Positions 753-59,208 of a DNA stretch of 64,000 nt are shown piece by piece. The notes below the pieces were generated by a model, which worked only from the letters and a program-made list of their open reading frames with translations, searched no databases and had not been told where the DNA came from. How positions within the stretch are numbered: the first letter of the stretch is position 1; each line of letters begins with the position of its first letter. A program made the position numbers and the translations under genes. This DNA comes from Ensifer sp. IC4062. GTDB taxonomy: Bacteria > Pseudomonadota > Alphaproteobacteria > Rhizobiales > Rhizobiaceae. Where the stretch lies: assembly GCF_020193575.1 (NCBI RefSeq), contig NZ_JADYVD010000032.1, forward strand, positions 1-64,000. Reading direction: 5' to 3'.

Positions 753-1820
753 TCAAGCCCTCGGCGTCGGAAGGGCCTGATCGGCCTCCACATCGTGGCC
801 CAACAATTCCGAAAGCCACTTGATGGACGGATGCTGGCTGCAAAAGGTCAACAGTGCGATCGTTATGGGCACGCCGATGAAGGCGCCAAAGACACCCCAG
901 AGATAGCCCCATGCGAGAACCGAAAACAGGACAACCACGGGTGACACCGATAGCGCACTGCCTGCGACCCGTGGCTCGATATAGCTGCTCACAACAAACT
1001 GAATGAGATTCAATCCCACGAAGACCAGCAAGACGGTTTCCGCGGTGCCGAACTGGATAAGGGCAAACAACGTCGGGAACAACGTAGCGAAAAGCGGCCC
1101 CAGAAACGGGATGTAGTTGAGAGCGAACGCAATGAAGCCCCACTCCTCGGCGAGAGACAGCCCGACAGCGCGGGCGAAAATCCAGACCAGAAGGCCGGTG
1201 ACGACACTCATTGCCGTCCTGATCATCATGTAGCGGCGGATCTTCATGGCTGTCAGTCGGCTACCGTGAAGAAGCAATGCACTGGCGGTCTGGTTCTGCA
1301 GCGCCCCGATCCTGCGCTCGAAGGCCTCGACCTCCATCAGCCCGAGCAGGACATAGACGAGAGCGATTAGCCAGAAACTGAAAGTGCTGTTAAGGCGGCC
1401 GCTCACGGTCTGTACCGTACGCAAAATCCAGCCAACGCCGAAGTTATCCGACCAAAGGACGTCAACGACGACGCCATGTTCCTCGAGCCAGAGGCGAACG
1501 TCGTCATAGAGCTGCTGAAAACGCGTGGCATCCGCGATGATCCACCGGCCGACCTGCCCGAATGCCCAGGCTATGAGCCAGCCGAATGCGAGGAATGCAA
1601 GCACGACCACCAGAAAGCTGATGATGAACGCCAGATAGCGAGGGAGCACCCCCTGCAGCCGGCGCTGCGCCGGCCAAACCAGCGCGATGATGAACAGCGC
1701 AAAGGCAACTGGCGCAAAAACCGAACTCGCCACCGAAAGCATCGCGACGAAGAGCAGAGCCGCGATCAGGATTTGGGTCGTGTAAATTGCCTTGTATCCT
1801 GCGGCCCGCACGCTCTCCAC
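753..1820 (-). CDS. AI-2E family transporter (PerM/UPF0118)
   Basis: A 355-residue polytopic inner-membrane protein. Paired hydrophobic helices near the N-terminus (from IYTTQILIAALLFVAML) are followed by a soluble loop around residues 100-150 and a second block of helices. The block contains the family-typical stretches EEWGFIAFALNYIPFLGP and GVFGAFIGVPITIALL. Members export small molecules or act as Na+/H+ antiporters; the substrate is usually unknown. A second, more diverged member lies at 59478-60635. The gene stands alone, with the amidohydrolase next on the same strand about 190 bp upstream. Confidence 0.85.
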   Translation of the reverse strand: MESVRAAGYKAIYTTQILIAALLFVAMLSVASSVFAPVAFALFIIALVWPAQRRLQGVLPRYLAFIISFLVVVLAFLAFGWLIAWAFGQVGRWIIADATRFQQLYDDVRLWLEEHGVVVDVLWSDNFGVGWILRTVQTVSGRLNSTFSFWLIALVYVLLGLMEVEAFERRIGALQNQTASALLLHGSRLTAMKIRRYMMIRTAMSVVTGLLVWIFARAVGLSLAEEWGFIAFALNYIPFLGPLFATLFPTLFALIQFGTAETVLLVFVGLNLIQFVVSSYIEPRVAGSALSVSPVVVLFSVLAWGYLWGVFGAFIGVPITIALLTFCSQHPSIKWLSELLGHDVEADQALPTPRA

Positions 1821-2007
1821 CTTCCAGTTAATTCCACCTGTCCTGTCGCGACGTCAGGCCAATCCGCTCTCTCGGAGGTGTACCGCATGTCGAAAGGACG
1901 CATCGGCTATAGGCTCCCCCCAATGTTGCGCCAGATGTGAAGGGTCGGGAGCGAGACTATAGGTCGTGCTTCGTCTGAGCAGCGGCCCTCCTGGCGCGTA
2001 TCGAGGC

Positions 2008-3444
2008 TCAAAGCGTATTCTTATGGATCGTGCCGTCTTTCATAATGACGACCAGGTTCTTTCCGGGGTCTTCGATGAGGCGAATGTCCTCGAGCGGATT
2101 GCCATCCAGAACCAGCATATCCGCGAGCGCACCTTCCTCAATGACGCCCAGTTCGCCGGGATACGGCGTGCGAAGGTTGGAAAGCGCAAGCAGCTCCGCA
2201 TTGACCGACGTCGCCATGCGCAGGGTTTCGGCGTTGGTGTACCAGTTGCTGAGATGGGTCAGCATGATGCCCTGGCGTGGGGTGACTTCAGGTGAGAACA
2301 GGATATCCGAACCCCACGCCGTCTTGATGCCATGCTTGCGAATAAGATCGTAGATCTTCGGAGTCCCGGCGAAGACCTGAAGCATCCGTTCGGCGGCTGG
2401 CCCTGTCTGCTGGGCGACATCCTCCGTCGACAGGAAAGGCTGCGTGCTGAGCCAGACACCCTTGTCGGCCATAATTCTTGCCGTCTCCTCGTCCATCAGG
2501 TGCGCGTGCTCGATGCAGGCCGCTCCCGCCGCGATCGCCCGCTGGACGGTGTTCGGGGCGTAGGCATGGACGGTGACATAGGTGTTCCAGTCCCGGGCAA
2601 CGTCAATCGCCGCACGTAGCTCTTCTTCGCTGAACGTGGACATGTCGAGCGGACTGCGCGGAGACGACACACCACCGCCTCCGACGATTTTGATCTGCGA
2701 GGCGCCCTGTAGCAGCTGCTCCCGTACGCGTTTCTTCAAGTCTCCGATACTGTCGACGATCGCTGCGGCGCCCATCAGTTCGCTCACGCTGAGCCGCCCA
2801 CCGTCCCGTGGAATCTCACTCAGCATGCGAAGGTCGCCATGCCCGCCGGAGGTCGTGATCATCGCACCTGACGGAAAGATGCGGGGCCCGGGGATGACAC
2901 CGCTGTCGATCGCTTGCTTGAAGGAAAAGACGGGACTGCCCAGATCGCGTACGGTGGTAAAGCCGCGCATGAGGGTCCGTTCGGCTTCAGCCGTAGACGC
3001 GGAGAAGACGAAACCGGGATCGCCCGTCGCTACCACCGCCAAAGGAACAGCGGCATACAACGTGTGCCAGTGTGCATCGATCATGCCCGGCATCAGAACT
3101 CGATCGCCGCAATCGATCACGGTCGCGTCGGACGGCGGAGCGCTGTTCGTCGCATCGACGGACGCGATCCTGTTGCCCTCGACCAGAACCTGGACCCCTG
3201 CCCGCAACGCGTCGGACTTGCCATCGAACAACCGGACCTTGCTCAAGAGAACCTTGGAGAGCGGTCCCTGGGCAAAGGATGGCCCAGGCGCCATTCCGGC
3301 GATTGCCGCCGCTCCGGCCCCTGCGAGAAAGTCCCGTCGCGAAAATGCATCAAGACGACGTGACGCCTGTTGGAGAACGGGACTGAAGCAGGCGCAGCCG
3401 GCGCCATGAACGAAGTGCTGATACTTCCTGCCCAACCGAAGCAT
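2008..3444 (-). CDS. Tat-exported metal-dependent amidohydrolase (imidazolonepropionase-like)
   Basis: A 478-residue amidohydrolase-superfamily enzyme. The N-terminus has a twin-arginine signal, SRRDFLAG followed by an alanine-rich helix ending near SFAQG, so the enzyme should be folded and exported to the periplasm. Metal-binding landmarks are D-A-H-W-H near residue 124, the IKIVGGGGV strand with a candidate bridging lysine, V-H-A-Y and E-H-A-H, and W-G-S-D near residue 380. This set is typical of the imidazolonepropionase/prolidase-like COG1228 group, whose members hydrolyse cyclic amides or dipeptides. GGGAGGGACC just before the ATG supports the start at 3444. The substrate is unknown. The gene diverges from ohrR across 195 bp. 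Confidence 0.82.
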   Translation of the reverse strand: MLRLGRKYQHFVHGAGCACFSPVLQQASRRLDAFSRRDFLAGAGAAAIAGMAPGPSFAQGPLSKVLLSKVRLFDGKSDALRAGVQVLVEGNRIASVDATNSAPPSDATVIDCGDRVLMPGMIDAHWHTLYAAVPLAVVATGDPGFVFSASTAEAERTLMRGFTTVRDLGSPVFSFKQAIDSGVIPGPRIFPSGAMITTSGGHGDLRMLSEIPRDGGRLSVSELMGAAAIVDSIGDLKKRVREQLLQGASQIKIVGGGGVSSPRSPLDMSTFSEEELRAAIDVARDWNTYVTVHAYAPNTVQRAIAAGAACIEHAHLMDEETARIMADKGVWLSTQPFLSTEDVAQQTGPAAERMLQVFAGTPKIYDLIRKHGIKTAWGSDILFSPEVTPRQGIMLTHLSNWYTNAETLRMATSVNAELLALSNLRTPYPGELGVIEEGALADMLVLDGNPLEDIRLIEDPGKNLVVIMKDGTIHKNTL

Positions 3445-3577
3445 GGTCCCTCCCGACGATGCGCTGCAAGAAGAAGTTGTTCAACCTAACATTTCACTCG
3501 CGTAGAATCCACCTGAAGCAGCTCCTCGGTCATGTTTAATCGGATCCCCTAAATCAGCCGAACCCGCGTCAATACCA

Positions 3578-3614
3578 TTGCGATTTAATCGCATCCGATT
3601 TATATAAATCGCAA
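3578..3614 (+). promoter_or_regulatory. ohrR promoter and operator
   Basis: A -35-like TTGCGA (3578-3583) and a -10-like TATATA (3601-3606) are 17 bp apart and embedded in inverted repeats. TTGCGATTTA (3578-3587) is mirrored by TAAATCGCAA (3605-3614), and positions 3596-3611 form a perfect 16-bp palindrome. The block at 3581-3603 matches 21 of 23 bases of the block upstream of ohr (11087-11109). Operator and promoter overlap, which fits autorepression by a MarR-family protein. OhrR binding is inferred. Confidence 0.7.
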
Positions 3615-3639
3615 TACGAAAACCAGATTGGAAAATTCC

Positions 3640-4134
3640 ATGACCACGTCCCAGACAGCAAAGAAACCGGATGCCGCCCCGCGGGCAGGCAAGGGAAATC
3701 CGAAGCTGGCGAACTTTCTGTGTTTCGCGATCTACTCGGCAAATCTTGCCTTCGGCCGCGCCTACAAGCCGATCCTGGATGAGCTTGGCCTCACCTATAC
3801 CCAATACATCGCTCTGGTGGCACTCTCCGACCAGGACGACCAGACGGTCGGCGAGCTCGGCGAAAAATTGTTCCTGGAATCGAATACGCTGACGCCGATC
3901 CTCAAGAAGCTTGAGCAGATCGGTTTGATCAGCCGTCGCCGCGACCCGGCAGACGAGCGGCAGGTTCGGGTGAGCCTCACGCCGGCCGGCCGCAGGCTGG
4001 TGGACGCCGACCCTGGCGCGTCGCTGACGGATGCCACCGGGCTCGGAGACGACTTTGACGAGGTACAGCAGAGCGTGGCGAGGCTGCGCGACAACCTCCT
4101 GCGCGCCACGCAGGGCGAATCGGGCAAGCCGTGA
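3640..4134 (+). CDS. ohrR: MarR-family organic-hydroperoxide sensor (OhrR type)
   Basis: A 164-residue winged-helix repressor. The N-terminal helix has L-C-F-A-I-Y-S-A-N with a cysteine at residue 28, followed by YKPILDELGLTYTQYIALVAL, as in OhrR proteins where this cysteine senses organic hydroperoxides. The wing contains SRRRDPADERQVRVSLT. It is the only cysteine, so this is a one-Cys OhrR. ATG 3640 is preferred over an in-frame TTG at 3628 because GGAAA precedes it. The overlapping palindromic promoter suggests autoregulation. The usual partner ohr is not adjacent but lies at 10600-10995 behind a matching site. Confidence 0.85.
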   Translation: MTTSQTAKKPDAAPRAGKGNPKLANFLCFAIYSANLAFGRAYKPILDELGLTYTQYIALVALSDQDDQTVGELGEKLFLESNTLTPILKKLEQIGLISRRRDPADERQVRVSLTPAGRRLVDADPGASLTDATGLGDDFDEVQQSVARLRDNLLRATQGESGKP

Positions 4135-4147
4135 CGCAGCAACTTAA

Positions 4148-4190
4148 AGTGCTACAGCGTCTTTGCTCGTCTAGACGCGCGGCGCTGCAG
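4148..4190. repeat. RIME-like palindromic repeat, partial copy
   Basis: AGTGCTACAGCGTC is followed by a short spacer and AGACGCGCGGCGCTGCAG, the first hairpin of a repeat family seen again at 11225, 17592, 18926, 32981, 54216 and 57022. It lies between ohrR and the next gene. Confidence 0.6.
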
Positions 4191-4324
4191 CCAGCCGTTC
4201 CTGCTTGTCGGAACAAAGTGTGAGCTTCGGAATTTATAGGACGTCGTCCTTCATCCAAGGTCGGCGTACGCGTCACACAGGAAGCAGTGTCCGCAATCCG
4301 GCGGGCACTGCCGGGGTTGCGGCA

Positions 4325-49079: not shown

Positions 49080-50060
49080 TCAGTTCGTCCCGAAAATGCC
49101 GGAGAAAGTCTTGAGGTCACTTTCCGAATTCTTGACCGCCGCGGCGGCATCGACCGGCAGCACCTTGATCGTCTCGCGGGCCGGATAGCCTTCCGGCAGC
49201 GCCACGCCGTTGCGGGCCGGGATATAGCCCATCTTCACCGCAACCTTCTGGCCTTCCTCGGAGATGAGGAAGTCGACGAACTTCTTCGCGGCATCGACGT
49301 TCTTTGCGGTCTGCAGGATGCCGACCGGCTCGGTGACGGCGGAAACGCCCTCGGCCGGGAAGACGAATTCCACCGGCGCGCCCTTGGCCTTCTCGCGGAT
49401 CGCCATGAAATCGACGAGCATGCCATAGGCCTTCTCGCCGGTCGCAACCGCCTTCAACACGCCGCCATTGCCGCCGGCGGCCGTCGCGCCGTTTTCGGCA
49501 AGCGCCGTGTAATAGTCCCAGCCGAGGCCGGGAATGGCGGCGAGCGTCTCGGCATGGATCAGCGCAGCACCAGAGGTAAGCGGGCTCGGCATGGTGACGA
49601 GGCCCTTCGCCTCGGGCTTCACGAGATCCTGCCAGCCTTCCGGCTTCATCGCGGCAGAGGTGTTGTAGACGATGCCTGTCGTGATCATCTTGGTCGAGTA
49701 ATAGGCGCCGTCCGCATCATAAAGCGCGGCATCATAGCCCGCCGCCTCAGGCGACTTGTAAGGCAGCAGATGCCCGCCCTCCTTCAGCCGCTGCATCGTC
49801 ACCGTGTCGGCGATCAAGAGCACGTCCGCCACCGGATTGCCCGCCTCGATCTCCGCCATCAGCTTGGCCATGATCTTCGTCGTCCCCTCGCGCACCCACT
49901 CGACCTCGACGCCCGGGTTCGCCGCCTTGAACGCATCCACCGTCGCCTGCGCATCCTCGTTAGGCTGGCTGGTGTAAAGCACCAGGCTTTCGGCATAGGC
50001 CGCGGTGGACATGAGGCCAGCGATGAGCGCGGCGGTGACAGCGGAGAGAAGCGTTTTCAT
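49080..50060 (-). CDS. ABC transporter substrate-binding protein (FbpA-like)
   Basis: A 326-residue periplasmic binding protein with a Sec signal ending S-T-A-A-Y-A-E. The mature N-terminus SLVLYTSQPNEDAQATVDAFKAANPGVEVEWVREGTTKIMAKL is typical of the FbpA/thiamine-phosphonate cluster. Tyrosines in G-A-Y-Y-S-T-K may be ligand residues. The most likely ligand class is Fe(III), but 2-aminoethylphosphonate binders look similar, so iron is unproven. It is the first gene of the operon, followed by the fused permease and ATPase. No Fur box can be shown in the 124 bp upstream. Confidence 0.85.
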   Translation of the reverse strand: MKTLLSAVTAALIAGLMSTAAYAESLVLYTSQPNEDAQATVDAFKAANPGVEVEWVREGTTKIMAKLMAEIEAGNPVADVLLIADTVTMQRLKEGGHLLPYKSPEAAGYDAALYDADGAYYSTKMITTGIVYNTSAAMKPEGWQDLVKPEAKGLVTMPSPLTSGAALIHAETLAAIPGLGWDYYTALAENGATAAGGNGGVLKAVATGEKAYGMLVDFMAIREKAKGAPVEFVFPAEGVSAVTEPVGILQTAKNVDAAKKFVDFLISEEGQKVAVKMGYIPARNGVALPEGYPARETIKVLPVDAAAAVKNSESDLKTFSGIFGTN

Positions 50061-50184
50061 GGGTTTGCCCTCGGTGGGTGAAAGATGGCGCCGAGGGATA
50101 GAGCGGGTGTTTTACAGGGGTGTGACAGGGGGTAGAGAGTCAAAGTCAGCTTTGCGCCATTGCGGTCATCGACACTCCATCGTC

Positions 50185-50808
50185 CTATGGCAGTAATCGA
50201 CCGACGTGCTGAAAGACTAAATGGGCATAACTTTGAGCCAATTGCTCACCAGCGTCCCAGAAGTCTGACTCGTCCAGATAGCCGCCATCGATCAGCATAA
50301 GTACGTCGCTGCGATCTTTCACTAATTCGGGATGGTCAAGTCGCAGATGTTTGATCATATTTAAGGCTCCACCGTCGCCGTCAATCGTCGGCTCGATAGA
50401 ACCATTCAGCATCAAGCGAAATCTTTGAGTGCAATTCGGATACGTTGGGTGAACGTGCTGGTCCTCATCGAACCAATCGGCTTTTTTCGCCCCACACGTC
50501 TGCGAAGGCTTGCCATGTTCATCTTTCTGACCACAACTCAGAAAAAGGTTCGAATACGTGGTCGAGAGAGCGTTGTAATGCCTTTGAGGACGGAAATGTT
50601 CTATGTGGTAAGTTTCTCCGGGTCGAGCCAAGTCGAGGCGGCGTCCGCAATATACGCATAAACCACGCTGCTCAACGAACAGGCATGATCTAACCTCATC
50701 CCTCACGTCCTTACGGTCAAACGGATAAGCTGGCTGCCAATCTGGACTAGCGTCATCCAGCCAAGCCAGTAGCGTTGGAGGAGTAGGACCTTTTCGACTG
50801 CCCTTCAT
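50185..50808 (-). CDS. ptuB: Septu-type HNH endonuclease (PtuB-like)
   Basis: A 207-residue nuclease with an HNH fold: C-V-Y-C-G near residue 50, then Y-H-I-E-H-F-R-P-Q near 68 with the catalytic histidine, an asparagine in S-N-L-F-L-S-C-G, and further zinc-type cysteines (T-C-G, N-C-T). This matches the TIGR02646-like HNH proteins found as PtuB in Septu and in retron Eco78 defence modules. The start ATG lies inside the stop region of the ATPase gene (ATGA overlap, 50805-50808). The AT-richer base composition differs from the neighbours. DNA or tRNA cleavage on phage infection is inferred from known systems. Confidence 0.85.
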   Translation of the reverse strand: MKGSRKGPTPPTLLAWLDDASPDWQPAYPFDRKDVRDEVRSCLFVEQRGLCVYCGRRLDLARPGETYHIEHFRPQRHYNALSTTYSNLFLSCGQKDEHGKPSQTCGAKKADWFDEDQHVHPTYPNCTQRFRLMLNGSIEPTIDGDGGALNMIKHLRLDHPELVKDRSDVLMLIDGGYLDESDFWDAGEQLAQSYAHLVFQHVGRLLP

Positions 50809-52055
50809 GCCGGAGCGCGCAGCGCTTTCAACCGCTTACGGAGTACCAGCAGTTCCGGAGGATCGCCCTCGACTTCAGACAAAATCATTTCAAGCAAACG
50901 AGTGGCCTTCGCTTCGTCTTTCTCATCAACCGCTACATTGAAAGAATCTATGAGCCTATCAATTTCTGGATATCGCTCGTGAGACTCAAAAACGCCCTCT
51001 AAAAGGTAGTTGCTCGTCTGCCCTTTTGTTCTAAGCGGTTGACTGACCTCGATGTCATGGCCATTCCGCGTCAGCATGCGAACGTGGTGGCTTTCAACAG
51101 AAGAAATTACCTGTGGGGAGTGGGTCGTGACGATGAACTGGCAAGACTTAAAAACACGAGCAAGCGTCGCAATGATCTTGCTTTGCCATGAGGGGTGAAG
51201 ATTAAGTTCAATCTCGTCGATCAAAATGACCCCGGCTATTTGGTCGATTGTAGCCTCTGGCTTAGAAAGTTGGAGGCGTCGAGCAAGGTCAGCAAGTAAT
51301 ATAATGAATGACCTCTCACCGGTAGACAACGAGCTGACGTGAATTCTTGCTCCGTCCTGCCTTCGAAAATACAACCCCTCGGGGTCCCCAGTAGATGAGT
51401 ATTCCAGTCCAACAAACCCGTCAATTTCCTTGATCAGATCACGAACGGCTTGGAGCTGTGGATCACGGTAGTTTCGATCAACATCCCGGACACGGCGCGC
51501 TTCTTCAGCATCTCGTTTATCCCACCAACTTTCCAACTGAGAAATTGCCCTGAGGGGACCGAAGAGGGAGGTCGTCGGATCAGCTCCTCGGCGAATGCCT
51601 AAGTTTCTATCGTCATCAAACCCGCGATCTTGCCTATAGTATAGGAGAAGAACATCCTTTTCCGAAGAAAAAGTCTGATTCAAAACAAAGTTCCGAACTT
51701 GTTCAAAAGTCCCCTTCTCCCCTCTAAAATGCAACTCTTCACTAAGTCGCAAATCAAGTCGCAATGGTACTTCTGAGCCAATAGCATCCTCAAGAATGAA
51801 TTCTAACTGTAATTCGTAATCATCCTGACCAATTCTTCTATCGCTCAGCTTAATTACACCCGGCGGGAAAGATGGCTTAACTCTCTCGCGATACCATGTA
51901 CTGTGAAGTTGAAAAAGCATTAAAGCCAATGCATCGAGTATCGACGATTTACCCAGTCCATTTCGTCCGACGATGATCGTCATGCGTGGATCAAGCGTCA
52001 CGTTAAGATGTGGAATTCCTCGGAAGTTATCCAAGGTGATCGCGGATACTCTCAT
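50805..52055 (-). CDS. ptuA: Septu-type ATPase (PtuA-like)
   Basis: A 416-residue ABC/SMC-type ATPase. Walker A G-R-N-G-L-G-K-S is near residue 30 after I-T-L-D-N-F-R-G-I-P; the signature-type S-L-S-T-G-E-R, Walker B V-I-L-I-D-E-I-E-L-N-L-H-P and H-loop V-T-T-H-S-P-Q-V-I follow. A long insert with coiled-coil character lies between. It forms the partner of PtuB; in known Septu systems the ATPase oligomer holds and controls the nuclease. ATG 52055 has GGAGGCAGGA upstream. A 384-bp divergent region separates it from the HEPN gene. No reverse transcriptase is nearby. Confidence 0.88.
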   Translation of the reverse strand: MRVSAITLDNFRGIPHLNVTLDPRMTIIVGRNGLGKSSILDALALMLFQLHSTWYRERVKPSFPPGVIKLSDRRIGQDDYELQLEFILEDAIGSEVPLRLDLRLSEELHFRGEKGTFEQVRNFVLNQTFSSEKDVLLLYYRQDRGFDDDRNLGIRRGADPTTSLFGPLRAISQLESWWDKRDAEEARRVRDVDRNYRDPQLQAVRDLIKEIDGFVGLEYSSTGDPEGLYFRRQDGARIHVSSLSTGERSFIILLADLARRLQLSKPEATIDQIAGVILIDEIELNLHPSWQSKIIATLARVFKSCQFIVTTHSPQVISSVESHHVRMLTRNGHDIEVSQPLRTKGQTSNYLLEGVFESHERYPEIDRLIDSFNVAVDEKDEAKATRLLEMILSEVEGDPPELLVLRKRLKALRAPA

Positions 52056-52253
52056 TCCTGCCTCCAAGCCTTGGCCGCGGGTATTGGAACTTACAAACGA
52101 ACAACATCCCTAAAGTCGATATTTCTGCAGAACGCAACATCTCGTGATCGTCGGCGTCGTCAATTTTGAAACTGCCTAAACTCCAAGCCTAGCAGAAATC
52201 AAGACCCATGCGGCAGTCTGGCCTAAACAGACCTTTCTGGGAGAAGCCGATGC

Positions 52254-52279
52254 GCTAATCCTTTAGGCTAATCCTTTAG
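52254..52279. repeat. Tandem 13-bp repeat in the defence-island control region
   Basis: GCTAATCCTTTAG is repeated exactly at 52254-52266 and 52267-52279 between the divergent ptuA and HEPN genes. Nothing else in 52068-52451 is clearly a gene; promoters for both sides must lie here. Confidence 0.75.
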
Positions 52280-52451
52280 AAGGTGTTGGATTGAGCGAGA
52301 GTCCGCTTGGGGCCAATGCGGACCTTGCTACTGGAAGCCGCGAAGGTCGCGATCCGACCCAAAGCGGCCACTCTCTTCTCGGGTTTGAGCTAGATTTCGA
52401 TCATGCTTGAGCTTGATCATTCTTTCTGACATTCGATGGAGGAGGATCCCT

Positions 52452-53501
52452 ATGCGGCTCGACTACATAAAGGTTTGGAAGCTTTTGGGCGTCAGCAAGC
52501 TACCAGCGGAACCCCCGATCTCAAGGCTCGGCGATCCTCCAATGGACTTCTTACTGACCGCAGACCCGGAGCCGTATTTCGTTCACATCGACAAATCCCG
52601 AGCACTCGCTAACGGGCTGCTGAAGGGGCTGTTCAAGGGCGAAGAAGATGGTTCTCTGGACGAGCGGCTTGTTAGTGAAATCGGGGCCGCCAAGGCGCGT
52701 CGAGCGAAAAACCAACGGCCAGGCTGCTACTTGATCGCATTAGCAGTGACGGATGCGCCTGAGCCGAAATTCGAAGCTCGTCGCGATGGAGCGGATTTTG
52801 AGGTCGCGATAGATGGTCTCGACAAAGAAGCGGTTCATAAAACTTATCGACCGACAATCGACGCGCTCCTCACAGGACTGGCATTGCGTCTTCCGTCGAA
52901 TGCTGACTTGAGGTGCGAGGAGATCGGGTCTGTGATCTTCCTAACGACGAATGACGCTAAGCCTTTGTATGCGCTCTCATTCAAAATCGGAAGCGCCATG
53001 CTATCGGTCGCATCGTTGCCTCCGGCTGATCTGTTAGACGTCGCGGGCAGCCTGGCGGCAAAAATCTTGGACGACACCAAGTTGCGACGTCCAATTGCAT
53101 TGCTGACATCATCTATTAACAACACGTCCGACCCCCTCCAAGCCTATTTGGACGGGTGGAACGCTCTGGAGATATTTGTCCAATCGGTGTTCAAATCGAC
53201 TTACGACGCCCGGTGGCGCGAGATCATGGAGGCGGGAGTTCCATCGGCCGCAAAGCCTGTGGTCGATCGGTTGGTCGAGGTGATGAGCGATAAATATCGA
53301 TTGGCGGACAAATTCCTAATCATCGCCACCATACTCCATCCGGAGAATGCGGCGGACGACGACACTGAATTTCGAAGGCTTAAGAAATCTCGAGATGGCG
53401 TGTTTCACGGCACAGATGATCCCGCTGATGTGTTCCCGACAGGCGCGATCCAAAGGCTACTATTAAAATACCTCCACACGCATCTTCAGGCGGCGAAATA
53501 G
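52452..53501 (+). CDS. Uncharacterised protein with C-terminal HEPN-like domain
   Basis: A 349-residue protein with no recognisable N-terminal domain (about 230 residues, mixed alpha/beta). The C-terminal 110 residues form helices with W-N-A-L-E-I-F-V, DKFLIIATIL and F-R-R-L-K-K-S-R-D-G-V-F-H-G, in which R314-x4-H319 is the HEPN RNase motif. The end, GAIQRLLLKYLHTHL, is typical of Apea-like HEPN domains. It could be an RNase effector, a toxin or a non-catalytic HEPN protein. It diverges from the Septu pair in the same AT-richer island. GGAGGAGG at 6 nt makes ATG 52452 preferable to TTG 52407. Confidence 0.7.
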   Translation: MRLDYIKVWKLLGVSKLPAEPPISRLGDPPMDFLLTADPEPYFVHIDKSRALANGLLKGLFKGEEDGSLDERLVSEIGAAKARRAKNQRPGCYLIALAVTDAPEPKFEARRDGADFEVAIDGLDKEAVHKTYRPTIDALLTGLALRLPSNADLRCEEIGSVIFLTTNDAKPLYALSFKIGSAMLSVASLPPADLLDVAGSLAAKILDDTKLRRPIALLTSSINNTSDPLQAYLDGWNALEIFVQSVFKSTYDARWREIMEAGVPSAAKPVVDRLVEVMSDKYRLADKFLIIATILHPENAADDDTEFRRLKKSRDGVFHGTDDPADVFPTGAIQRLLLKYLHTHLQAAK

Positions 53502-53648
53502 GACAAAGGCTGCAATGCTGTCAAACGCCTCGTATGCCAACTTTACAGTATCACCCGCCGGGCGCCCTGAAGCACAGTTGGCCTCGCCTATTTGACCCTA
53601 TTGTGCCACGCGCGATTCAGCTCCGTCTTCGCCACCAAGGTGAGCAAA

Positions 53649-54068
53649 TTGACCACAATCCGCATCGCCGCCGCCCTTTTGATCCGCCCCGACGGCCAAA
53701 CGCTCCTCGTGCGCAAGCGCGGGGCGAGCGCCTTCATGCAGCCGGGCGGGAAGATCGGCCCCGGCGAAACGCCGGATGCGGCCTTGGCGCGGGAGCTCAG
53801 GGAAGAGATCGACCTTGACGTCGAGCCCGCGTCCTTCGAGGCCTTGGGTGAGTTCAGCGCCGAAGCATCCAATGAGCCGGGACACCGCGTCCATGCGGAT
53901 GTCTTCCTCGTCAGGACCGAACAGGTTCACTTTCACCCCGCGGCCGAAATCGAGGAAGTGAAATGGGTGTCGCCCTTTGATGCCGGCGGGGTGGCGCTCG
54001 CTCCGCTCAGCGCGGATCACATCTTTCCGCATTACCGGGAACTGATCGGGCGGAGCACACGCCGCTGA
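53649..54068 (+). CDS. NUDIX hydrolase (MutT type)
   Basis: A 139-residue NUDIX protein with a nearly perfect box near residue 30: G-x5-E-x7-R-E-L-R-E-E-I-D-L, where the usual Gly of EExGU is Asp. It should hydrolyse a nucleoside diphosphate linked to another group, such as oxidised dNTPs. The start is taken as TTG 53649 with AAGGTG at 6 nt; GTG 53640 is an alternative. It marks the return to host-like GC-rich sequence after the defence island. A terminator-like element sits at 54111-54140. Confidence 0.82.
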   Translation: MTTIRIAAALLIRPDGQTLLVRKRGASAFMQPGGKIGPGETPDAALARELREEIDLDVEPASFEALGEFSAEASNEPGHRVHADVFLVRTEQVHFHPAAEIEEVKWVSPFDAGGVALAPLSADHIFPHYRELIGRSTRR

Positions 54069-57390: not shown

Positions 57391-59208
57391 ATGGCAAGTC
57401 TCATCCAGGCCCACGACTGGCAAGACAGCAGTCTCGGTTCGATAGATGCTTGGCCCCACTGTCTGAAGTCGGCAGTGGACATCATGCTACCGTCGCAGGC
57501 CGAGATCGTTATCTTCTGGGGCGAGGATTTCGTCGCTCTCTATAACGATGCATATGCACGCACAATCGGAAGCAAGCATCCTCACGCACTTGGTCGGCCG
57601 GCGCATGAGAGCTGGGGCGAACTGTGGAGCGATCTCGAGCCGCTCTTGAGGCGTGTGCTCGATCATGGCGAGACGGTGGTTGCGAAAGATCGTCCGTTCT
57701 ATATCGAACGCCACGGATATCCCGAGACAGTCTACTTCGACATTTCCTACTCGCCTATTCGCGATGAAACGACGAGAGTCCGCGGCGTCCTCTGCATTGT
57801 GAACGAGACGACCGAACGCGTGCGTTTCGAAACTGCGCTGCGGAAGAGCGAGGAGCAACTCCGCGCGATTTTCTCGCACTCCGCCGCCGGGATCTTTCAG
57901 TCGGATCTCACCGGGCGCATACTTCTTGCCAACAAGCGCTTCTGTCAGATTGTCGGCTACAGTGAAGCTGAGCTGCTGACAATGCGGTTGCAGGATTTGA
58001 CTTTTGCCGGCGACCCCTCGGATGAAATCCGCTTGTTCGAGACTATGGTGCAAACCGGGCAGAGCTTCGAGATCGAGAAGCGCTACGTTCGCAAGGACGG
58101 AAGCCTCGTATGGGTGGCAAACTCGGTTTCCGCGCTTCGTGATGAGGACGGTGGCATACGAAAAGCCGCCGCCGTCGTCGTGGACATCACCGAACGCAAG
58201 CTTGCGCAGGAGATGGAGCGTCGGCTAGCCGCGATCATCGCCTCGTCCAATGACGCCATTCTCGGCACTGATCTGAACATGAGGATAACAAGCTGGAATG
58301 CCGGAGCTGAGAAGCTTTACGGCTATTCGGCGGAAGAGGCGGTCGGGCGCTCGGTCCTGATGCTGGTTCCGGATGATCGCGTCGAGGAAGAGCCCGCCAT
58401 TCTGAGGCAGGTCAGTGCGGGCCTGAAAGTCGAGCCATATGAGACGAAGCGGCGCCGCAGGGATGGGCGGCTTGTCGACGTCCTGCTTAGCGTCTCACCG
58501 ATCTTTGACGTCTATGGCCGAATTATTGGAGCTTCGAAGATCGCTCATGACATTACGGCGCGGAAGGAGGCTGAGCGTCTCCATGCGGTGCTGGTCGGCG
58601 AACTGAACCATCGTGTGAAGAATCTGTTTGCAACCGTCATGGCAATCGCCCGCCAGACGCTTGGCCGCGACAAAGTGAACAGACAAGACGTGGATGTTTT
58701 CGAAGCGCGCCTGGTTTCGATGGCAAGAGCACACGACCTCCTGAACCACGGAAACTGGGAACAGGCCGATCTCAGGGCCGTCATAGAACAGTCCCTTTCG
58801 CCATACCCGAGGGACAGGTTCGAAATCTCCGGCCCCTCGATTGAACTGTTGCCGAGGGCAGTGGTGTCGATTTCGCTGGCATTTCACGAGCTCGCTACGA
58901 ATGCCGCCAAATACGGCGCTCTCTCGGTGGAAACCGGCCGCGTTTCAATCACCTGGTCACTTGAGGGTGATGCGCCTACCAAACTGAAGCTGCTCTGGCA
59001 GGAGAAGGACGGACCAGCCGTAGGCGAGCCTTCGCGCAAGGGATTCGGTTCGCGGCTCATCGAGAGCCTGCTGGCGGCGGAATTGAATGGCACGGTAAAG
59101 ATCACCTACCATCCTGCAGGCCTGATCTGCGAGGTTGACGCCGCCCTGAAAAACGGATGGGACGCTCACGCTTCGTTCGAAGTAGAAGAAGTTGTCGCAG
59201 GCGCATAA
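57391..59208 (+). CDS. HWE-type histidine kinase with three PAS-like domains
   Basis: A cytoplasmic sensor kinase of 605 residues. A first PAS/GAF-like region (HDWQDSSLGSIDAWPHCLKSAVDIML, FWGEDFVALYNDAY) is followed by two PAS-PAC modules starting at EEQLRAIFSHSAAGIFQSD and RLAAIIASSNDAILGTD, each ending in a D-I-T-x-R-K/E type linker. The transmitter has E-L-N-H-R-V-K-N-L-F with the phospho-accepting His, then H-G-N-W-E of the HWE family, F-H-E-L-A-T-N-A-A-K-Y-G-A and G-F-G-S-R-L-I. No response regulator is adjacent. ATG 57391 is given, but related kinases have conserved sequence upstream that is open here without a standard start codon. Confidence 0.9.
   Translation: MASLIQAHDWQDSSLGSIDAWPHCLKSAVDIMLPSQAEIVIFWGEDFVALYNDAYARTIGSKHPHALGRPAHESWGELWSDLEPLLRRVLDHGETVVAKDRPFYIERHGYPETVYFDISYSPIRDETTRVRGVLCIVNETTERVRFETALRKSEEQLRAIFSHSAAGIFQSDLTGRILLANKRFCQIVGYSEAELLTMRLQDLTFAGDPSDEIRLFETMVQTGQSFEIEKRYVRKDGSLVWVANSVSALRDEDGGIRKAAAVVVDITERKLAQEMERRLAAIIASSNDAILGTDLNMRITSWNAGAEKLYGYSAEEAVGRSVLMLVPDDRVEEEPAILRQVSAGLKVEPYETKRRRRDGRLVDVLLSVSPIFDVYGRIIGASKIAHDITARKEAERLHAVLVGELNHRVKNLFATVMAIARQTLGRDKVNRQDVDVFEARLVSMARAHDLLNHGNWEQADLRAVIEQSLSPYPRDRFEISGPSIELLPRAVVSISLAFHELATNAAKYGALSVETGRVSITWSLEGDAPTKLKLLWQEKDGPAVGEPSRKGFGSRLIESLLAAELNGTVKITYHPAGLICEVDAALKNGWDAHASFEVEEVVAGA

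Follow-up and report, generated by a model that had tools for sequence, protein, structure and literature searches.

Do three neighbouring genes in an AT-richer island of a rhizobial genome form one anti-phage system, and why do they stand at this particular site? The question was raised by a stretch of 64,000 nucleotides from Ensifer sp. IC4062 (contig NZ_JADYVD010000032.1, positions 1 to 64,000; hereafter the window), in which a first-pass annotation had marked a Septu-type pair, the ATPase gene ptuA and the HNH nuclease gene ptuB, beside a divergent gene encoding 349 residues (the third gene). Our analysis makes it quite likely that the island is one cargo of a small defence hotspot on the Sinorhizobium chromosome, and that it carries two separate modules, a Septu system and a probable stand-alone defence gene.

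Variable content between two flanking genes

The island lies between a gene that we take, from its sequence, to encode an iron(III)-type substrate-binding protein (SBP) of the ATP-binding cassette (ABC) class and a NUDIX-type gene (Table 1). The two genes stand on one contig in 12 of the 12 genus genomes having both, 1105-4175 bp apart, and the inserts in these slots (12 of the 33 genus genomes) measure 1.1-4.2 kb and consist of mostly different DNA. The content between the flanks is variable, and defence-family genes of at least seven kinds of system, among them Septu, PD-T4-2/Nsn-like, PARIS-like, Dazbog and PifA, were detected by PADLOC and Pfam scans in nine of the 12 slots. Different defence systems thus occupy one site in different genomes, as in a core defence hotspot. 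The surrounding intervals differ little between genomes: the permease-SBP interval is -68 in all 12 genomes, the DUF924-LysR interval is 61-62 and the NUDIX-DUF924 interval 257-523 (seven measured), and the GST-ABC ATPase interval is 232-654 (ten measured).

The composition of the island supports the sharp ends described in the first-pass annotation, and all three open reading frames (ORFs) lie exactly where it had placed them. The GC content is 0.478 for ptuA, 0.506 for ptuB and 0.542 for the third gene; at third codon positions (GC3) the values are 0.465, 0.500 and 0.609, as compared with 0.797-0.838 for the eight nearest flanking genes tested and 0.677 for a ninth, the PAS gene at 57391-59208. 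To the left of the island and at about 53.5-56 kb the GC content exceeds 0.6, and at about 55.5-59.5 kb it is 0.58-0.60. Stop-free stretches in the island reach 434 codons, the maximum among 300 mononucleotide shuffles being 218. Promoter and terminator scans were uninformative: they gave 1 and 5 sites, where shuffled sequence gave 2.5 and 4.0. The island is, however, one occupant, among many cargoes, of a site whose content varies among species. The inserts in the 11 other genomes have a GC content of 0.48-0.58.

The most likely route of cargo exchange is homologous recombination via the genes on either side. Alternatively, a prophage or another integrating element could have brought it to a specific site and later lost the integration genes, which we consider unlikely. 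The closest PtuAB found, on the viral contig L050, is directly downstream of a tyrosine-recombinase-like gene that resembles an integrase of a Rhizobium etli phage, as this alternative would have it; however, neither the ORFs of at least 90 residues nor the Pfam scans of the 12 slots revealed an integrase or transposase, no tRNA gene is present in the window, and no common repeat was found by eye in 28 left junctions (the right junctions being unaligned). Several of the left junctions share a further short stretch.

The Septu module

The Septu-type pair with its ATGA overlap was borne out by the coordinates and by profile searches. PADLOC assigned the two proteins to PtuA1 (1.9e-77) and PtuB1 (8.8e-49), and the NCBIfam model TIGR02646 gave PtuB 92.8 bits against a cut-off of 52.15, so that the hidden Markov model check places the pair inside Septu/TIGR02646. 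The ATGA at 50805-50808 on the minus strand is common to the ptuB start and the ptuA stop, resulting in a four-base overlap. PtuA contains what we take to be the Walker A (K36), signature (LSTGERS, 243-249) and Walker B (VILIDE, 276-281) motifs, and the catalytic residues are intact both in PtuA (Walker A/B, signature) and in PtuB (HNH residues). With a PtuA-family ATPase and a neighbouring PtuB-family HNH nuclease, the pair is, by its sequence, a Septu system.

A retron type I-A (Ec78) identity was rejected, in agreement with the first-pass annotation, which had excluded a retron Eco78 module. The ORF list of the window holds no reverse transcriptase, no Rfam match, retron RNA included, was found in 49900-53750 at E ≤0.5, and both NCBIfam models for retron Ec78 scored below their curated cut-offs (PtuA, 206.5 bits against 500; PtuB, 92.4 bits against 150). 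The pair is homologous to the ATPase and nuclease effectors of the type I-A retrons Ec78 and Ec83, but unlike these it has no adjacent reverse transcriptase or known RNA. Judged by these features, the Septu of the window is an ordinary one without a retron.

By sequence, PtuA matched best the solved structures of retron Ec83 (7.4e-36) and PtuA 8ee4 (4.7e-33), and in the alignment it sets in at position 61 of the Ec83 protein; PtuB matched retron I-A PtuB chains (1.4e-8) and, weakly, 8ee7 (0.0039). The window pair shares with the solved Septu proteins (PtuA 8ee4, PtuB 8ee7) and with the Escherichia coli Septu EcB88 the same ATPase and HNH operon with its motifs, but is distant, the best matches in other order-level genomes being about 34-36% identical. 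The spacing of H71 and N87 in PtuB equals that of H75 and N91 in EcB88. In EcB88, substitution of H75/N91 or of Walker A/B residues abolished immunity, and tRNA-Tyr was cleaved after infection (PMC13096335). For Septu PtuAB from a different E. coli strain, activity on nicked DNA has been reported, and that study concluded that the targets of PtuAB vary (PMC11555353). By analogy, PtuA and PtuB of the window would assemble into a complex that becomes active when a phage infects and then cleaves nucleic acid, putatively phage DNA or host tRNA-Tyr as in the studied systems, whereupon phage growth would stop. We infer this role in phage defence from the two families and their intact motifs.

The genome counts below, for PtuA as well as for the third gene, include the window's own genome. 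PtuA was found in one of 33 genus genomes (E ≤1e-20), two of 397 order genomes (1e-40), two of 318 class genomes (1e-30) and eight of 299 phylum genomes (1e-30). Plasmid records gave no match at 1e-30 and 35 matching records at the looser 1e-12. The PtuA of L050 (pair at 1155-4203) is 64% identical to that of the window, and its PtuB gene has the same four-base overlap. Since this pair adjoins a recombinase-like stretch that matches the annotated integrase of the R. etli phage, rhizobial prophages are the probable carriers of relatives of the window ptuAB. The 9.5 kb of L050 that was read contained no third gene.

The third gene is separable from Septu

The third gene is divergent from ptuA, its start lying 396 bases beyond the ptuA start, and it had no match in Pfam, NCBIfam or PADLOC at E ≤1. 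Relatives occur in three of 100 genomes in one search set, two of 33 genus genomes, four of 397 order genomes and one of 318 class genomes, as well as in a single plasmid record (S. chiapasense pA); phage records and viral contigs contained none.

The first-pass annotation had left it open whether the third gene belongs to the system and had proposed to count how often it accompanies PtuAB, taking a lack of co-occurrence elsewhere as evidence against its own proposal. That lack is what the count returned. Five other third-gene loci (L005, L006, L031, L032 and L033; about 2-12 kb read on each side, with L032 ending 2.1 kb from the relative on one side) showed neither PtuA nor PtuB (E ≤1e-3) within the flanks covered. 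Ten other PtuA loci (L050-L059, four with at most 2-3 kb on one side) had no third gene as searched with a profile of its family, whereas PtuB stood beside PtuA in nine of them, L055 giving no match in 3.1 kb downstream. Both were present only in the window among the 16 loci compared. On this co-occurrence (0/5 and 0/10) the third gene was rejected as a Septu component, and it is probably not a part of Septu.

The two modules also come apart at the site itself. A segment of the window is 93% identical to the same site of another genus genome, G027 (Table 1), and the shared DNA begins at 52303, between Septu and the third gene. The G027 site carries a third-gene copy in two pieces (86% and 92% identical) with a frameshift near codon 253, and ptuAB is absent from it. 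It is very unlikely that this Septu uses the third gene as an optional accessory, a regulator or second effector that would make a three-gene variant. Its place adjacent to and divergent from ptuAB in one compositional island would suit such a variant, and PADLOC's authors found Septu extended by one gene, which encodes a reverse transcriptase (PMC8565338); the failure to co-occur, the G027 copy without ptuAB and the unlike GC3 (0.61 against 0.47-0.50) all speak against it.

Between the window and G027, the synonymous divergence of the third gene is 0.08-0.12 and that of the neighbouring SBP gene 0.19, which is consistent with a later exchange of the third gene. The ratio of nonsynonymous to synonymous divergence is about 0.5 for the third-gene copy and 0.09 for the SBP gene, a relaxed constraint that is expected if one copy is broken. 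Elsewhere, a relative in another order genome is divergent from a gene for an 817-residue SMC-like ATPase (L033:5085-9042), and the relative on S. chiapasense plasmid pA is convergent with a 212-residue ORF (L006:12001-13756), near genes that we take, from their sequences, to be IS21-like transposition genes.

A candidate HEPN domain in the third gene

Five proteins of the family were aligned, that of the window and four others 25-43% identical to it. Twenty positions are invariant, including W236, L239, E240, R314 and H319, and the elements R-[DN]-x3-H and W-x2-LE are kept in 5/5. R-x4-6-H is the motif of HEPN RNases, and R314 and H319 fit it in all five proteins. The R-[DN]-x3-H element thus suggests a HEPN RNase, and an RNase domain of the HEPN type may make up the C-terminal half. 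As to the Apea-like HEPN family (PF18739), the R-x4-H of the third gene is in register with that of L071, the sole protein over the family cut-off. The best hhalign segment with L071 lands on this element, at a score that is not significant.

A serious contender, with a probability somewhat short of even, is that the third gene has nothing to do with HEPN or with defence and is an unrelated gene that moved along with the island by chance. The gene has no significant family match, its defence role is argued by neighbourhood alone, and the copy in G027 is broken. The invariance of R-[DN]-x3-H, the defence families in nine of the 12 slots and the patchy spread of the gene argue against this contender and for a stand-alone defence gene.

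Cargo in other genomes

The contents of the 12 slots are given in Table 1. In one of them (G010, L013:744-4491) an AriA/AriB-like pair and a PDC-M41A/B pair, the latter including a DUF5131 gene, share a single slot of 4 kb, back to back. The NUDIX flank itself matches the candidate defence family PDC-S07 (3e-14), probably as a generic NUDIX match.

The 16 other SBP-bearing genomes gave no NUDIX match at 1e-30. Beside their SBP genes we found PifA (G025, 7.4e-85), an NsnA-like protein with a HEPN_RiboL-PSP-like partner (G001), and a Drt6/Drt4-like reverse transcriptase in two overlapping ORFs of different frames (G013, L021:444-2124), which match consecutive parts of the Drt6 profile, so that the gene looks frameshifted. 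In G030 (L022:471-3717), a 942-residue protein with a partial PDC-M28B match and a 161-residue ORF without PADLOC match are candidate new defence genes, and the gene in G016 looks like a transposase. The other eleven genomes were judged by GC content and ORF lists, the one ORF scanned (G003) giving no match. In total, a defence-family match stands beside SBP in 13 of 28 genomes.

Table 1. Coordinates of the features in the window and contents of the slot in the 12 genomes
Feature	Positions	Strand	Evidence or content
Left flank, presumed periplasmic iron(III)-type ABC SBP gene	49080..50060	-	28/33 genus genomes, E ≤1e-100
Variable slot	50130..53649		Conserved DNA up to 50130-50169 and again from 53522-53649, by genome compared
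ptuB, HNH nuclease, 207 aa	50185..50808	-	PADLOC PtuB1; TIGR02646 above cut-off; solved PtuB chains; C51/C54, H71, N87 present
ptuA, ABC-type ATPase, 416 aa	50805..52055	-	PADLOC PtuA1; solved PtuA chains
Segment 93% identical with same site of G027, separate module	52303..53518		blastn
Third gene, 349 aa, unnamed family; candidate C-terminal HEPN RNase (R314, H319)	52452..53501	+	Invariant residues; no family match
Right flank, NUDIX-type gene (part scanned)	53652..54068	+	12/33 genus genomes, E ≤1e-30
Slot of G000 (window)			Septu and 349-aa gene
Slot of G002			SBP_bac_3 gene
Slot of G004			NsnA/PD-T4-2_A-like DUF262 protein (1.1e-73); weak HEPN_RiboL-PSP partner
Slot of G005			DzbA (3.9e-121), DzbB (2.2e-42) (Dazbog)
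Slot of G007			PifA (1.7e-87)
Slot of G010			AriA/AriB-like pair and PDC-M41A/B
Slot of G014			ApeA_NTD1 protein and PDC-S45 (4.8e-108)
Slot of G019			AriA/AriB-like pair
Slot of G021			Fused AriAB (2.6e-157)
Slot of G024			136-aa ORF (unscanned)
Slot of G027			Broken 349-aa gene; 207-aa ORF without PADLOC match
Slot of G032			Same protein as fused AriAB of G021 by slot comparison (itself unscanned)

Discussion

Several observations weigh against a defence hotspot with a HEPN-bearing second module. The NUDIX gene is present in just 12 of 33 genus genomes, as compared with 28 of 33 for the SBP gene, and in five of these 12 no DUF924 was found beyond NUDIX (one of the five lying at the edge of its contig), which makes the right side the less conserved one. 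PADLOC is unspecific for ATPases and NUDIX proteins: two of six flanking control proteins matched, an ABC ATPase (mad3, 2e-30) and the NUDIX protein (PDC-S07, 3e-14). The AAA matches of G010 and G019 therefore weigh less than Dazbog, PDC-S45, PDC-M41, PifA and the fused AriAB, and the count of nine defence-bearing slots in 12 refers to this one interval of the genomes. For the third gene, HEPN_Apea matched one of five family members (E 0.09, residues 238-327) in a list in which unrelated families scored equally (Urease_alpha 0.044, Citrate_synt 0.095), and no HEPN profile match was significant. Comparisons of the family by hhalign with DzbB, the ApeA_NTD1 protein, the HEPN_RiboL-PSP-like protein and the HEPN_Apea protein L071 were all four not significant, and the window's genome has no HEPN_Apea match at E ≤0.01. 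AlphaFold single-sequence models were of low confidence (mean predicted local distance difference test 35.7 and 46.1), with a helical C-terminal half. HEPN identity and RNase activity of the third gene are accordingly put forward as predictions from conserved residues.

Of the known kinds of site, the core defence hotspots of Pseudomonas aeruginosa come closest. Like our slot, cDHS1 and cDHS2 hold diverse defence systems between conserved genes, and 29% and 47% of the sites are without a detectable mobile gene; exchange via transduction and recombination in the flanks was proposed (PMC10250203). The slot differs from them in size, with 1.1-4.2 kb against medians of 26 and 6 kb, and in that cDHS flanks carry tRNA/tmRNA genes (PMC10250203), none of which is found in the window. 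E. coli hotspots are mostly filled by known mobile elements (PMC10121019). A search of open-licence PubMed Central found no publication describing this rhizobial/Sinorhizobium site.

A bolder proposal, which we hold tentatively and regard as rather doubtful, is that the 349-residue gene founds a new single-gene family of anti-phage RNases, with a HEPN-like C-terminal and a family-specific N-terminal half, and that the SBP-NUDIX interval is a recombination-exchanged, integrase-free defence slot of Sinorhizobium, one to four genes in length, the unmatched cargoes of which are new defence genes as well.

For the biology of these bacteria, the finding means that in many Sinorhizobium genomes small defence systems are housed in a few kilobases next to a single conserved gene. 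Because the slot holds such systems, its unmatched genes, the 349-residue family as well as the 161-residue and the largely unmatched 942-residue genes of G030, are cheap candidates for testing. Small swaps without visible integrases offer a way to study the movement of defence genes in rhizobia.

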